From Collinsella aerofaciens (lineage in GTDB: Bacteria > Actinomycetota > Coriobacteriia > Coriobacteriales > Coriobacteriaceae): DNA of 10,546 bases. Made by a program: the position numbers and the translations under genes. Numbering within the stretch: position 1 is the stretch's first letter; every line of letters starts with the position of its first letter. The notes under the pieces are model-generated. The model saw only the letters and a program-made list of their open reading frames with translations, did not search any database and had not been told where the DNA came from. Positions 3,666-10,247 of the stretch are shown here, in pieces. Location: assembly GCA_008671285.1 (NCBI GenBank), contig RPYR01000195.1, forward strand, positions 1-10,546, in the 5' to 3' direction.

Positions 3666-4229
3666 TTAAGGCTCTTTTTTGCTTTGCACGCCCTTGGCCC
3701 ACTCGGCACTGGCTCTCATGGCGTTCTCGAGGGCCTCGCGCAGTTTTTGGTCTTCGATGGGCGCCACTTGGCGCTCAATCTCGGTGCGCTCGGCCTCGCT
3801 GAGGTCGGCGTGCGGGGCCGGCGGGCGCTCGGTCGTCGCCGGGCGCAGGCGCTCCTTGGCGGCGGGTGGCGTGTGACCGGGCGCGGTGGTTTTGAACACC
3901 AGGCCGTCCACATGCGCACCGGCGCGCTCCATGCGCGCGCGAATGATCTCGCGCAACAGCGTCATTTCCTGCGTCCACGAGGGCGAGTCGAGATATACCA
4001 GCAACTCATTGGACTCGGGCAGGTAACGCAGCCCCGTCACATGCCGCCCCTCGCGCGTGCCCGAGCACACCGCGTTCCACGCGCGATAGACCGCGCGCGA
4101 CTCCTCGGCAGCCTCCATCTGCGCACGGCGCTCAGGGGTCGCAGCCGCCAGGATGCGTTGGCGCTCTGCGTTTAAAAATCCACTGAAGGCGACCGTTTCG
4201 CTCTCGCGCTCGTAATTAGCACGTCTCAC
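3666..4229 (-). CDS. dciA: DciA-like DUF721 protein (helicase loader/operator family)
   Basis: This 187-residue protein carries a DUF721-type core at about residues 47-112. The core has the conserved opening Trp51 (AWNAVCSGTREGRHVTGL), an alternating hydrophobic strand (NELLVYLDSPSW) and a following helix (TQEMTLLREIIRARM). DciA proteins interact with the replicative helicase DnaB and are the usual loader where DnaC/DnaI is absent; that role is taken from the family. The tail (about 115-187) is Pro- then charge-rich and probably disordered with a terminal helix. Start is GTG at 4227-4229, which overlaps the last 14 bases of recF in another frame and suggests translational coupling; only a weak AGGTGG lies upstream. 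The position between recF and gyrB is typical of actinobacteria. Function is inferred from family and position; sequence identity in this family is low. Confidence 0.85.
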   Translation of the reverse strand: MRRANYERESETVAFSGFLNAERQRILAAATPERRAQMEAAEESRAVYRAWNAVCSGTREGRHVTGLRYLPESNELLVYLDSPSWTQEMTLLREIIRARMERAGAHVDGLVFKTTAPGHTPPAAKERLRPATTERPPAPHADLSEAERTEIERQVAPIEDQKLREALENAMRASAEWAKGVQSKKEP

Positions 4230-6436: not shown

Positions 6437-6454
6437 CTTTTAATACCTTTCTAT

Positions 6455-6468
6455 AGATATAAATATCT
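6455..6468. repeat. AT-rich inverted repeat upstream of dnaN
   Basis: AGATAT and ATATCT are perfect complements separated by AA, giving a 14-base dyad 18 bases upstream of the dnaN start codon. It could be an operator or a chance product of the AT-rich tract. Confidence 0.45.
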
Positions 6469-6483
6469 TAATAATAGTAATAG
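6469..6483 (+). promoter_or_regulatory. Candidate DnaA-trio array
   Basis: The plus strand reads TAA TAA TAG TAA TAG, five consecutive triplets fitting the DnaA-trio pattern (3'-[G/A]A[T/A]-5'). Twelve bases further 3' lies TGTTGATTA in the TGTGGATAA-like orientation, so trios and box have the same relative order and polarity as in the Bacillus subtilis basal unwinding system. DnaA filaments are thought to grip single-stranded trios during melting. The spacer is longer than in Bacillus and not strongly GC-rich. Confidence 0.6.
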
Positions 6484-6495
6484 CACTGACGAAAC

Positions 6496-6504
6496 TGTTG
6501 ATTA
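6496..6504 (-). promoter_or_regulatory. Candidate DnaA box next to the trio array
   Basis: TGTTGATTA is the complement of TAATCAACA, which matches TTATCCACA at 7 of 9 positions. Its orientation and closeness to the trio array make it more credible than an isolated match. Confidence 0.45.
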
Positions 6505-6566
6505 CTCCCAAAGACGCAGGTCAGACCCAGAAAGAGAATCGACAGCAACCTGTGTGCAACGGGGGT

Positions 6567-6586
6567 GGTTTTCCACGTTCAAAACC
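6567..6586. repeat. 20-bp imperfect dyad overlapping a DnaA-box-like 9-mer
   Basis: Arms GGTTTT (6567-6572) and AAAACC (6581-6586) share their centre with the palindrome ACGT (6575-6578), giving 16 of 20 symmetric positions. TTTTCCACG at 6569-6577 matches the DnaA box at 7 of 9. This could be an operator or part of an origin box cluster. Confidence 0.45.
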
Positions 6587-6599
6587 TGCGCAAAACTTT
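6575..6599 (+). repeat. 25-base element shared with the second origin segment (copy 1)
   Basis: This direct repeat matches 9840-9864 at 21 of 25 positions, including the exact core TTCAAAACCTG and the shared end AAAACTTT. The copies lie in the two non-coding segments that flank dnaA and its upstream partner gene. Confidence 0.75.
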
Positions 6600-6621
6600 T
6601 CACCACCGCGGGTTGGGTTTT

Positions 6622-6666
6622 AGACACCTTATGCCCATGGTTTCGACAAGTTTCCAACAGGTGTCT
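6622..6666. repeat. Inverted repeat just downstream of dnaA
   Basis: AGACACCT (6622-6629) and AGGTGTCT (6659-6666) are perfect 8-base complements around a 29-base loop containing TTTCGACAA (6641-6649) and TTTCCAACA (6651-6659). On the minus strand it begins about nine bases after the dnaA stop, but it has no T-run after it, so it does not look like a standard terminator. Confidence 0.5.
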
Positions 6667-6674
6667 CTATTTCC

Positions 6675-8399
6675 CTACGAGCGCAGTGTAATTTTATCGC
6701 GCAGCGATTTGAGGTCTTCGGTGACGGTACGGTCTTCCTGGATCATCTTCTGGACCTTTTTGTAGCTCGTGCTGACGGTCGAGTGGTTGCGGTTGCCAAA
6801 TTCGGCGCCCACCGCCGTGGTCGTCATCTCGCACATCTCGATGGCCAGGTAGATAGCGATATGGCGTGCTTTGGCGATATTGGCGTTGCGACGCGGGCCG
6901 ATGAGCTCCTCGTGCGTCACGCCGTACTGCTCTTCGATGACGGACTGAACCGTCTGGACGTTGATCTTTTTGGCCGATGTGTCGAAGTACTGGCTGGCGA
7001 TGGCGTCGATATCGTCAAAGGTGAGCTCCCCGCCCTCGCGCTCGCGGTCGCCCGCCTCGCCGGCGCAGCGCTCGCAAAAGCTCTCGAGTTCGCGGATGTT
7101 GGTGCCCGAGACCTCGGCCATGTGTTTAAAGTGCTCGTCGGTCAGGTGTCCGCCGTCGCCCCCATAGGCCGCCAGCAGCGAGTCGTCGCCTGCCTCGGGA
7201 GCGGCGACGATGGTGTTCTCGTAATAGCGCTGCAAGATCTTGTATTTCATCTCGTAGCTGGGCTCTGCGACCAGGCAGAGCATGCCGGCGTTGAAGCGGC
7301 TGGTCAGACGCTCGTCCATGCTCAGGTCCTTGGGGGCACGGTCTGCCGCGATGACGACCTTCTTGTTGTTGCGGATGAACTCGTCCATGAGCTGGAAAAA
7401 GTAGTCCACGCTCGCGCGCTTGCCGATGATGTTTTGGATGTCATCGATGATGAGCACGTCCACGCCGTGGTACGCCTGCATGATGGGGGCGTTGCTCTTC
7501 TTTTGGCGGTCGAACTCGGTCATCAGGTCGTCCAGATATGCCTGGGAGTTGGCATACTTGACCTTGATCTCGGGCGACTTCTCGGCGAGCTCGTTTTTGA
7601 TGGCAAGCAGCAGGTGCGTCTTGCCCAGGCCCGATTTGCCGTAGATGAACAGTGATGTGCATGTGCCGCGCTCGTCCGCGAGGGCGGCAAACTTGAGTGC
7701 CGAGCGATAGGCATGGCTGTTTTCGGGGCCGTAGACAAAGTTCTCAAAGGTAAATTTTGAGTTCGCGGCGAGCGGGGCTCCATCCGTATTCTGCTCGGCC
7801 GGCACGGTCGGCGCCGGTATGGGTGAAGCGGGGGTCGCAGCTTGCGTGGATTTAGTCGGCGCTCCGCCCTTCATCTGGTTCATCATGCGACGAAAATCAT
7901 CGGCCGAGAGCGTGTTCTTGATTGCAATGCCCGAATCCGCGCCCGCCGCTGCGTCGTGAGCGATAGGCATGTGCGTGACGGGTGCGTTCGTTGACGTCGC
8001 CGCCGCGGTCGGCAACGGTGCCATGGTTTCACGGGAAACATCGCTGTGCTGGTGCTCGATTGTCGGCACGTCGCCTGCGGAGGTCGGTGCCGCCGGGGAA
8101 GCGGCGGGAGCCGTGGCGGGCGCCGTCGCGGCAGCGGATTCCGTTGCGGCGCCTTGCGGTGCCACGATGTCGAGCGCGATCGGTGCAAAGGCGATTTCTT
8201 CCAGATAGGCCTCAATAGTCGGCTGATGCTTTTTGAGCTGCGCGATGGCAAAGCGCGAGGGGGCCTCGATCGTGAGCGTATCTTCGGTCAGGCTTATGGC
8301 CCGCGATTGCCCCAGCATGTTGATGAGGCGTGCATCTTGGCCGTCGCGCTGGCAAAAGGCGATGGCATCCCCCAGGATGATGCTTGCTTCCTCGTCCAC
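6675..8399 (-). CDS. dnaA: Chromosomal replication initiator DnaA
   Basis: DnaA is the AAA+ protein that binds origin boxes, melts the origin and recruits the helicase. The 574-residue product has domain I (about 1-80), a long Ala/Pro/Thr-rich linker domain II (about 82-212), the AAA+ domain III and the DNA-binding domain IV. Walker A is YGKSGLGKTHL (253-263), Walker B is VLIIDDIQ (315-322), the sensor I strand is VVIAADRAPKDL, the arginine-finger region is ERLTSRF (363-369) and sensor II is GTNIRELES (432-440). The box-recognition motif reads FGNRNHSTV (534-542), with Asn where DnaA normally has Asp (RDHTTV). Two loops after domain III (about 398-417 and 445-457) are Gly/Glu-rich. Start GTG 8397-8399 follows GGGAGAG by about five bases. 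It is only 15 bases from the upstream ATPase gene, leaving little room for a private promoter. It ends in TAG. Confidence 0.98.
   Translation of the reverse strand: MDEEASIILGDAIAFCQRDGQDARLINMLGQSRAISLTEDTLTIEAPSRFAIAQLKKHQPTIEAYLEEIAFAPIALDIVAPQGAATESAAATAPATAPAASPAAPTSAGDVPTIEHQHSDVSRETMAPLPTAAATSTNAPVTHMPIAHDAAAGADSGIAIKNTLSADDFRRMMNQMKGGAPTKSTQAATPASPIPAPTVPAEQNTDGAPLAANSKFTFENFVYGPENSHAYRSALKFAALADERGTCTSLFIYGKSGLGKTHLLLAIKNELAEKSPEIKVKYANSQAYLDDLMTEFDRQKKSNAPIMQAYHGVDVLIIDDIQNIIGKRASVDYFFQLMDEFIRNNKKVVIAADRAPKDLSMDERLTSRFNAGMLCLVAEPSYEMKYKILQRYYENTIVAAPEAGDDSLLAAYGGDGGHLTDEHFKHMAEVSGTNIRELESFCERCAGEAGDREREGGELTFDDIDAIASQYFDTSAKKINVQTVQSVIEEQYGVTHEELIGPRRNANIAKARHIAIYLAIEMCEMTTTAVGAEFGNRNHSTVSTSYKKVQKMIQEDRTVTEDLKSLRDKITLRS
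8025..8040. promoter_or_regulatory. parS: parS centromere-like ParB-binding site inside dnaA
   Basis: The minus strand reads TGTTTCCCGTGAAACC, matching the widely conserved parS sequence TGTTTCACGTGAAACA at 14 of 16 positions. In the dnaA frame it encodes VSRET, the peptide typically produced when parS lies in a gene, here embedded in the otherwise Ala/Pro/Thr-rich domain II linker. parS sites cluster near origins and load ParB for chromosome segregation. Binding is inferred; one mismatch is in the central half and one at the edge. Confidence 0.72.
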
Positions 8400-8414
8400 T
8401 GTCTCTCCCGTTCT

Positions 8415-9839
8415 TTAGCTCTGAGCTCGCACGCGAGCGGCGCCGAGTTCGGTCAGATGGTATTTCTGGCCATGCTTGATGACCAAGCCGGCCTGCGCCA
8501 AGTCATTGAGCGTGCGTGACCAAGTGGGGGCCGAGTTTCCAAACGCCCTCGCCAGATCGGTTGCACCGCACGCTTGATTTTGCGCCAGATAGCCCAGCGC
8601 GGCGTTGCCGCGATCGCTTACGAACACGTCCGGTTGTGGCTGCGCATACTGATTTGCTGCATTAGGATACATCATTTGAGCTGCTGGTTGTTGAGAACTC
8701 TGCATCGGCGGCATTTGCTGTTGAAAACTTTGAGGCCACTGTTGGTAAGGCTGCAGAGGCATCTGTTGGGCCCAGGGGTTGTACTGCTGCTGCGGCATCT
8801 GCTGGTACGGCTGCTGATATCCCTGCTGGTACTGCTGCGGGAACTGCTGGCCATACCCCAGTGGCGGCATCTGCTGATATGGATATCCCCGTTGGTACGG
8901 CTGATAGCCCATTTGCTGGCCACCCGGTGCCCCCGTCGCCTGCTGCATTGCTGCTGCATCCTGATCTGCCAGCGGCATGGCCTCTGGCATGTTTGGCGTC
9001 ATCGACATAGATGCCGCCTGGGGCTCTTGTGTGGGAAGCATTCCGGGCTGCTGCATCTGCCCCACGGGGGGCTGCATCTGCTGCGTTGCCATGGGCTGCT
9101 GCGCAAAAGCTCCCGGCAGGGGATATGTGGGCTGCTCCGTCTCGGGCCGCACGGCAGCACCGCGTCCGCCGGCACGCTCGATTTCCTGCACGCGTTTAGG
9201 GTTCAGGCTTACCGTAACCACGGTGCCGTTGCCCATGTTGTCCTCGATGGATACGGCACCGCCGGCGTTTTCCAAATACTCCTGCACCATGGGAAACCCT
9301 GCTCCGGTTCCACGGATATAGCGCTTCATCTTGCTGTTTGCGCTGGTAACGCCAAAGTCGAAAGCGCGTTCCTTGTCGTCGATGCCGGGTCCTTGGTCAG
9401 CAAAGCGGATGGTGTCTCCGCCGTCCAGAATCGAGATGATGGGCTCTGCAAAGTGTGCGTGGATAAAGTTTTCGACAATCTCGCGGATGACCATGAGCGA
9501 GATATGGCCACCTTGTTCTTTCATGCACTGGTAGACGGTGTTGGTCGTCTCTTCCAAATACGTGCGGACATCTTGCGGATCGATGACGATCACACGCGGT
9601 GTCGACAGCATGTCGTCATAGACGGCGATGCGCGCGGCGTACATGGCTTTTGGCGCCTGCGTTGTCGTCTGTTCACCTTCGTCACGCTCTTCGCGCACGC
9701 CGGTGATGTGCTCGTTGTCGGGTGCCGGGTCTCCGGAATCGACCATGGTGTAAAAGTCGTCAGACATGCCGCTCGCAATCTTCCAAAAGGTTTCGAACAA
9801 ATAGTAGCTCACCGTGCAATGTTTCTCATCTTTCGACAA
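8415..9839 (-). CDS. GHKL ATPase with Q-rich linker and C-terminal winged-helix domain, heading the dnaA operon
   Basis: No named family was recognised. The 474-residue frame has three parts. Residues about 75-213 form a histidine-kinase-like ATPase: N-box REIVENFIHAHF (119-130), G1 FADQGPGI (146-153), G2 RGTGAGFPMV (176-185), and a final strand pair IEDNMGNGTVVTVSL. No phospho-acceptor His box or membrane segment is evident, so it resembles anti-sigma/SpoIIAB-type ATPases more than a sensor kinase. Residues about 237-405 are low-complexity Gln/Pro/Met/Tyr. Residues about 405-474 are a winged helix (ALGYLAQNQACGATDLARAF, then a wing ending KYHLTELGAARV). It probably binds ATP and DNA; a regulatory role towards dnaA is inferred from the 15-base gap to dnaA. 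Start is uncertain: TTG 9839 is the longest reading, GTG 9812 and ATG 9767 are alternatives, and none has a strong ribosome site. Confidence 0.85.
   Translation of the reverse strand: MSKDEKHCTVSYYLFETFWKIASGMSDDFYTMVDSGDPAPDNEHITGVREERDEGEQTTTQAPKAMYAARIAVYDDMLSTPRVIVIDPQDVRTYLEETTNTVYQCMKEQGGHISLMVIREIVENFIHAHFAEPIISILDGGDTIRFADQGPGIDDKERAFDFGVTSANSKMKRYIRGTGAGFPMVQEYLENAGGAVSIEDNMGNGTVVTVSLNPKRVQEIERAGGRGAAVRPETEQPTYPLPGAFAQQPMATQQMQPPVGQMQQPGMLPTQEPQAASMSMTPNMPEAMPLADQDAAAMQQATGAPGGQQMGYQPYQRGYPYQQMPPLGYGQQFPQQYQQGYQQPYQQMPQQQYNPWAQQMPLQPYQQWPQSFQQQMPPMQSSQQPAAQMMYPNAANQYAQPQPDVFVSDRGNAALGYLAQNQACGATDLARAFGNSAPTWSRTLNDLAQAGLVIKHGQKYHLTELGAARVRAQS
8670..8951 (-). repeat. Degenerate Gln/Tyr/Pro/Met repeat region (low-complexity linker core)
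   Basis: This is the densest part of the linker (residues about 297-390), built from short variants of (Y/F)QQ(M/G/P/W), such as PYQQMP and QGYQQPYQQMP. The plus strand shows recurring CTGCTG and GGTACGGCTG words. The repeats are degenerate at both DNA and protein level, so they look old rather than recently expanded. Confidence 0.8.
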
Positions 9840-9864
9840 ACTTTCAAAACCTGTTGAAAACTTT
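9840..9864 (+). repeat. 25-base element shared with the dnaN-dnaA segment (copy 2)
   Basis: It matches 6575-6599 at 21 of 25 positions in the same orientation. Three of the four differences are adjacent: TTG here replaces CGC in the other copy, so only this copy contains TGTTGAAAA. Confidence 0.75.
9849..9862 (+). repeat. 14-base direct repeat, copy 1 (box-like)
   Basis: ACCTGTTGAAAACT recurs exactly at 9902-9915, 53 bases away, close to five helical turns. It contains the box-like TGTTGAAAA. Confidence 0.8.
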
Positions 9865-9901
9865 GGAAAACGGACGAAAAGTTCTCAACATTGCCAACAT
9901 G

Positions 9902-9915
9902 ACCTGTTGAAAACT
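9902..9915 (+). repeat. 14-base direct repeat, copy 2 (box-like)
   Basis: This is an exact copy of 9849-9862 in the same orientation, lying just beyond the two abutting opposite-strand 9-mers at 9882-9899. Confidence 0.8.
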
Positions 9916-10010
9916 CGATGAAATATCGTGAAAAGTTGCCATGCACCGCTAAATCGAGCTTGGCTTATGGGGGAACCGTGTGAACTGCGCAACCTTTTAC
10001 CTTTGATTTC

Positions 10011-10040
10011 TTGACATTTGAACATTGATTTCCCTACAAT
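10011..10040 (+). promoter_or_regulatory. Promoter for rpmH-rnpA
   Basis: A perfect -35 TTGACA (10011-10016) and a -10 TACAAT (10035-10040, 5 of 6) are separated by 18 bases. Transcription should begin near 10047, giving a leader of about 65 bases before the rpmH start. Strong consensus fits a ribosomal protein gene. Confidence 0.88.
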
Positions 10041-10066
10041 CTTCAAGCTCACGTGTCTATATCTGC

Positions 10067-10084
10067 GTCCGCGTCCCCGCGGAC
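10067..10084 (+). promoter_or_regulatory. GC-rich hairpin in the rpmH leader
   Basis: GTCCGCG and CGCGGAC pair perfectly (7 bp) around TCCC. No T-run follows, so it is not a terminator. It ends 15 bases before the Shine-Dalgarno region and could stabilise the leader or influence rpmH translation. Confidence 0.55.
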
Positions 10085-10112
10085 ACTCGAAATGCAGCAG
10101 GAGGAACTTAAG

Positions 10113-10247
10113 ATGAAGCGTACGTATCAGCCTAATAAGCGTAAGCGTGCCAAGACCCATGGCTTCCGTGCCCGTATGGCCACTAAGGGTGGTCGTGCCG
10201 TGCTCGCCCGTCGTCGCGCCACGGGCCGCAAGCGTCTCACTGTCTAG
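10113..10247 (+). CDS. rpmH: 50S ribosomal protein L34
   Basis: L34 is a small, very basic structural protein of the large ribosomal subunit. The 44-residue product [18 protein letters not shown] ... GRKRLTV matches the whole family, with the invariant KRTYQPN start and the Arg/Lys-rich helix [23 protein letters not shown] lies about nine bases upstream of ATG 10113. It is driven by the promoter at 10011-10040, divergent from the dnaA operon, and ends in TAG. rnpA follows after 20 bases, the usual pair next to bacterial origins. Confidence 0.98.

Follow-up and report, generated by a model that had tools for sequence, protein, structure and literature searches.

Gene order around dnaA

The stretch of DNA analyzed here, referred to as the window (10,546 nucleotides), represents the region of the replication origin in a genome that resembles Collinsella aerofaciens. 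The genes gyrA-gyrB-dciA-recF-dnaN-dnaA are located on its minus strand, which reads from right to left, and rpmH and rnpA are divergently oriented (recF, rpmH and rnpA were named from fold match, translation and place). One extra minus-strand gene, which we call the leader gene, was found between dnaA (6675..8399, minus strand) and rpmH (10113..10247, plus strand). Its stop codon at 8415 precedes the GTG start codon of dnaA at 8399 by 15 nt, as an earlier note on this DNA had described, and its product is 100% identical in the best segment to the proteins encoded by loci L001 to L004. The intergenic region between the leader gene and rpmH (9768..10112) contains DnaA-box-like sites and is possibly the upstream part of oriC, and the region between dnaA and dnaN (6437..6674) is a second possible origin segment. 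Between recF and gyrB, a DciA-like gene is located at 3666-4229 (PF05258, 27.9 bits at a cut-off of 24). The Rfam models gave no match in the window at the gathering threshold.

The earlier note had let the leader gene start from the TTG at 9839, where a longer open reading frame (8415-9839, minus strand) opens. This TTG is unlikely to be the true start, as an in-frame stop codon separates it from the ATG at 9767 in 28 of the 40 Collinsella loci compared (L001-L022 and L025-L042, with some genomes included twice), the window itself being open at this place. The likely product is therefore the protein of 450 amino acids that begins at the ATG (8415..9767, minus strand) and that consists of a GHKL ATPase domain, a linker and a winged helix.

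Domains and conserved residues of the leader protein

The GHKL (Bergerat) ATPase domain covers residues 44-193 (9189..9638, minus strand) and matches the Pfam model HATPase_c with 42.3 bits at a cut-off of 26.4, which bears out its original designation. The residues that are invariant in the alignment form the N box (R95-E96-I-V-E99-N100), the D box (D124-G126-G128) and the G2 box (R152-G153-G155-G157) of the window protein. HATPase_c was matched by all 50 family members scanned, and among 145 proteins, as counted with loose patterns, the N box was recognizable in 142, the D box (DxGxG) in 145 and the G2 glycine box in 138. A Glu at the position of E96, where the N box has its general base, was present in 139 of the 142 proteins with a recognizable N box. 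By these motifs and the HATPase_c match, the leader protein is a predicted member of the GHKL ATPase superfamily, and it would be expected to bind ATP.

The C-terminal winged helix (residues 381-450; 8418..8627, minus strand) stays below the Pfam cut-offs in the window protein (HVO_A0261_N 31.7 against 35 bits; HTH_IclR 19 against 22 bits), whereas the relative P0122 passes that for HTH_IclR with 36.5 bits. Moreover, 47 of the 50 members matched HTH_IclR at E≤1e-3, and the winged helix forms a confident domain in the structure model of P0122, so that the presence of this domain in the leader family is upheld. In the same model the first strand of the GHKL domain begins at residue 24. The two domains of the window protein are joined by a Q/P-rich linker of low complexity (residues 194-380; 8628..9188, minus strand) that is lineage-specific. 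A long linker is typical of Collinsella and of some of its kin, and the long disordered linker proposed in the earlier note does not hold as a feature of the family, many members of which total only 240-300 residues; a relative from Slackia has 255.

For 22 Collinsella alleles compared in 231 pairs, dN/dS amounted to 0.022 for the GHKL part, 0.098 for the winged helix, 0.257 for the linker and 0.229 for the N-terminal tail. The values for the first three of these parts rule out the possibility that the leader gene is a chance open reading frame. Together, the conserved ATP-site motifs and the purifying selection point to a functional protein.

Linkage of the leader gene to dnaA

We collected 176 loci with a leader gene, many of which are near-identical Collinsella loci, some even from the same genome twice. 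Wherever dnaA was visible (162 loci), it was located downstream on the same strand. When the C. aerofaciens block (L001-L042) and repeated genomes were left out, this arrangement was found in 124 of 138 loci, which were returned or picked from match lists over a spread of E-values and do not sample the genomes at random. Ten of the 14 others have dnaA at the start of the contig and the leader gene no more than 236 nt from its end; these were counted as linked on the assumption of circularity, which brings the number to 134 of 138. The available DNA of the remaining four ends too soon to show dnaA, and no counterexample was encountered. Hence the coupling to dnaA that had been noted for the window, understood as gene linkage, applies to every testable locus, and the pair spans at least four classes. 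The window gene, with a GHKL domain and a winged helix encoded directly upstream of dnaA on the same strand, belongs to what we propose as the dnaA-operon leader family.

As a yardstick we used the other neighbors of the pair. Where they could be seen, rpmH was divergent upstream in 161 of 163 loci and dnaN was downstream in 87 of 93 loci. The whole dnaA region is therefore stable, and the extra stability of the pair rests on six loci (L073, L076 and L101-L104), in which dnaN is on the other side and the leader gene and dnaA are nonetheless together; in L073 and L076 rpmH is elsewhere as well. These six loci may represent only a few independent events. Part of the fixed linkage can thus be ascribed to this overall stability. 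The distance from the leader stop codon to the first in-frame dnaA start codon has a median of 16 nt; it is within 30 nt in 71 of 119 loci and beyond 200 nt in six, and a few loci show overlaps of 4 nt. This spacing is compatible with a single transcript, on which the two genes would be co-transcribed. Across 92 loci, pairwise distances between the family proteins correlated with those between the corresponding DnaA sequences (Mantel r 0.567; 0 of 2000 permutations), as expected for genes that would have been inherited jointly and vertically.

Distribution across Actinomycetota

In the Coriobacteriia, 265 of 296 genomes were matched at E≤1e-6. One of these, G111 (best E-value 3.5e-7), has a kinase-like match at a locus without dnaA, and when it is left out strong matches remain in 264 of 296 genomes (E≤5.5e-23). 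The leader gene is thus widespread in this class, which rules out an architecture restricted to Collinsella. In the phylum-wide survey, 157 of 396 genomes were matched at E≤1e-12. Strong full-length matches were found in 30 of 39 genomes in the class of G476 (33 when kinase-like matches are included), in 14 of 31 genomes in the class of G409 (23 with kinase-like ones) and in 49 of 99 genomes in the class of G428, which takes in G418, the L170 protein of which (P0242) is named as that of a Thermoleophilia bacterium. In the class of G318, which is probably the Actinomycetes, 40 of 118 genomes were matched at E≤1e-8, but a full-length match was found in none of the 118. The partial matches in this class look like histidine kinases: those listed score 47.7 bits at most, and all end at or before position 198 in a profile of 254 positions. 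The organism names among the best 120 matches were all from Actinomycetota, most of these matches carrying no name.

We examined 13 of the 31 Coriobacteriia genomes that were missed in this survey. Seven, in which the C-terminal domain of DnaA could not be detected, are probably incomplete genomes, and one ends at a contig edge. In the other five (L222-L226), rpmH adjoins dnaA and the leader gene is absent; these are probable natural losses. The leader gene is not universally essential, since at least these five genomes of the survey keep dnaA without it. Three genomes in the carrier classes likewise have dnaA and no leader gene, namely G323 in the class of G428, and G324 and G310 in the class of G409. 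Its function would thus be dispensable or replaceable in these eight non-carriers, and L222-L226 provide a useful natural comparison. In 20 non-carriers from the phylum-wide survey, no family member was found in the region around dnaA; rpmH was divergent upstream in 16 of them, once at a distance of about 2.4 kb. A family HMM that detected 109 of 109 held-out members found none in 25 non-carrier loci, which speaks against a leader gene hidden there between rpmH and dnaA.

A literature search, with most subscription papers outside its coverage, yielded no description of the leader gene, and a term search of PMC13270200 gave no occurrence. The conserved gene is apparently undescribed.

DnaA boxes and putative regulatory sequences

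Three DnaA-box-like sites (TTTTCAACA, TTCTCAACA and again TTTTCAACA, at 9852, 9882 and 9905) were found upstream of the leader gene within 9852..9913, a segment that also contains an exact repeat of 14 nt, ACCTGTTGAAAACT. They are among ten matches to the DnaA box with at most one mismatch in the whole window, compared to 0.99 expected. In 128 regions between rpmH and the leader gene (four genomes being counted twice), the top shared 9-mers were DnaA boxes, which occurred in 61, 57 and 53 regions compared to at most 9 in shuffled sequences. DnaA boxes were also observed between dnaA and dnaN, where loci from the class of G476 have most of theirs (14-18 per locus). Among the 67 loci for which both regions were available, boxes were more numerous upstream in 32, more numerous downstream in 22 and equal in 13. 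The replication origin may therefore consist of two parts.

A simple promoter and terminator scan of the window returned a single promoter-like site, which lies on the strand of rpmH. By eye, the sequence TACTAT (9801..9806, minus strand) can be read as a possible −10 element of a leader-gene promoter. It is present in several related loci as well, and is located inside the formerly assumed N-terminal extension. The above scan, based on consensus sequences, identified no promoter for the leader gene, including at this position. A promoter for dnaA may lie inside the leader gene.

When the DnaA boxes in the 128 regions were masked, the remaining motifs differed by group, and several of them resemble promoter or ribosome-site elements. 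No motif common to the whole family was left that could represent a dedicated operator, and for this reason no operator can be named.

Comparison with known systems

No named family in Pfam, NCBIfam, PHROGs or PADLOC covers the whole protein. The statement in the earlier note that the motifs match no named architecture is therefore nearly right, except that the order of a GHKL domain followed by a winged helix is shared with the DIP2311-like AlbA_2-HATPase_c_4-wHTH proteins (PDB 3lmm; Pfam PF04326, PF13749 and PF22168). Of three sets compared by hhalign, only this one aligned over both leader domains (95.7%), the comparison sets being small (17 AlbA_2-type and 9 kinase-like ORFs). However, the leader family does not have the N-terminal SLFN_AlbA_2 domain that is present in the AlbA_2-type comparison protein, and its members match HATPase_c, with no HATPase_c_4 in any member scanned. 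Furthermore, the leader gene is tied to dnaA, whereas up to 26 HATPase_c_4 matches can occur in one genome. This domain is expanded in G231, where the 26 matches were counted, and in G211, which has 12.

For the GHKL part alone, the kinase-like ATPase set gave the best hhalign match (98.8%, compared to 60.4% for the GyrB set). The ATP-binding HATPase_c domain is thus shared with sensor histidine kinases, but the leader proteins carry a C-terminal winged helix, and no HisKA-type phosphoacceptor domain was matched in 50 members in Pfam at E≤1e-3. A small GHKL domain with a Glu in the N box is also characteristic of SpoIIAB-type anti-sigma kinases. In this case the likeness is limited by the winged helix of the leader proteins and by the weak match of the spIIAB model, which hit 9 of 50 members with a best E-value of 1.9e-4. 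No sigma-factor or STAS (anti-anti-sigma) gene was present among the eight scanned proteins of the window. SpoIIAB and kinase folds were not among the 50 structures listed in the fold comparison, which is uninformative alone. With the Csa3/CasR proteins, which are CARF-wHTH one-component regulators, the family shares a sensor domain combined with a MarR-like winged helix; both the sequence and the fold of its winged helix match Csa3, and there is a resemblance to the winged helix of MarR regulators too. The leader sensor is however a GHKL and not a CARF domain, as the matches to CARF/Csa3 models are confined to the winged-helix end, from residue 384 onward in the window protein and from residue 159 onward in P0122, and the context is dnaA instead of CRISPR. 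A sensor and winged helix that would work like those of Csa3 is an analogy, not a membership. Overall, the leader family lacks a tested defining feature in each case for histidine kinases, DIP2311-like proteins and CARF regulators.

Possible roles of the leader protein

The control of replication initiation or dnaA expression that the earlier note had proposed is plausible as a hypothesis. In our reading, the chances are about even that the leader protein is an ATP-gated one-component regulator whose gene has long belonged to the dnaA operon of Actinomycetota. The GHKL domain would bind ATP and, through the conserved Glu, would perhaps hydrolyze it. The ATP state would then alter DNA binding by the winged helix, probably in a dimeric form, with the intergenic DNA that separates rpmH from the leader gene as the presumed target. 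Sharing, as we presume, one mRNA with DnaA, the protein would set the output of its own operon and therefore the DnaA level, most likely by autorepression that tracks the nucleotide state or the origin copy number, and perhaps it would act on origin firing too. Its most likely role, in which we place middling confidence, is thus to control the dnaA operon in an ATP-dependent manner from the promoter region close to the origin, a direct role at oriC coming next.

For such a direct role, the winged helix would bind oriC and contact DnaA or the helicase loader, and the ATP state would license or block unwinding instead of acting on transcription. This is a possibility that we regard with some doubt. 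Many loci have DnaA boxes on one side of the gene pair or on both, the pair survives where other neighbors are elsewhere, and family-protein distances correlate with DnaA distances, all of which argues for it. However, box-like sequences can still be made out by eye in the regions inspected from five non-carriers, and the analysis revealed neither a contact surface nor a co-loss with a DnaA feature. It is only a tentative suggestion that an ATP-gated oriC regulator of a hitherto undescribed kind, with a GHKL switch that senses the nucleotide state and a winged helix, has licensed initiation alongside DnaA since early Actinomycetota and is missing from Actinomycetes.

It is unlikely that the leader protein regulates unrelated genes and merely shares the dnaA transcript, being kept in place by the stability of the region. 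The nearly constant positions of rpmH and dnaN, together with the fact that the leader gene can be absent, speak for this explanation. They are countered by the six loci in which the pair is kept with dnaN elsewhere (in two of them rpmH too), and by the spacing of a few nucleotides to dnaA in several groups. Least probable is a protein kinase, similar to SpoIIAB or to histidine kinases, with DnaA or some other partner as its substrate and with the winged helix serving for location: the Glu at the general-base position, the kinase-like profile match and the name ‘anti-sigma regulatory factor (Ser/Thr protein kinase)’ that JGI gives to many members point in this direction, but the missing HisKA-type domain, the sparse and weak spIIAB matches and the lack of sigma-factor or STAS genes in the window make it very doubtful.

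To our knowledge, the control of initiation in Actinomycetota outside the well-studied Actinomycetes is largely unknown. The leader protein, as a predicted ATPase and DNA-binding protein encoded together with DnaA in at least four classes, is a concrete and testable candidate, and with its gene, a gut bacterium and numerous distant relatives would have a candidate element for the control of chromosome replication. In mycobacteria, Rv0004 lies beside dnaA. Genes of the dnaA region have yielded real replication factors, as a report on mycobacterial Rv0004 indicates (PMC5720831).

Group-specific motifs and the DnaA signature of Collinsella

Several of the motifs left after masking are specific to particular groups. 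Collinsella and its kin have a TTTCA-N4/5-TTTCA motif between rpmH and the leader gene. In some Coriobacteriia the palindrome TGAAANNTTTCA is found near the start codon (11 of 128 regions: L052, L059, L063, L065, L066, L069, L070 and L088-L091), and in 9 of these 11 it lies 46-75 nt before the assumed start codon. It is a possible candidate operator, though able to overlap with DnaA-box-like sequence. The group motif of the class of G476 is a CCTGCAAA repeat. Among 14 intergenic regions (L153-L160, L162, L164-L167 and L187), CCTGCAAA was present in 11 and AGTATATC in all 14. In four of six regions inspected, CCTGCAAA exactly flanks the upstream DnaA-box cluster on both sides, and near matches were seen in the other two.

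The DnaA proteins of three Collinsella loci have RNHST in the DNA-binding signature, and 44 other classed loci have RDHST or RDHTT. In the upstream regions of the RNHST loci we counted five copies of TTTTCAACA and none of TT[AG]TCCACA, and in those of the RDH loci both sequences occur (18 and 63 times, respectively). These counts suggest a possible shift in DnaA specificity in Collinsella.
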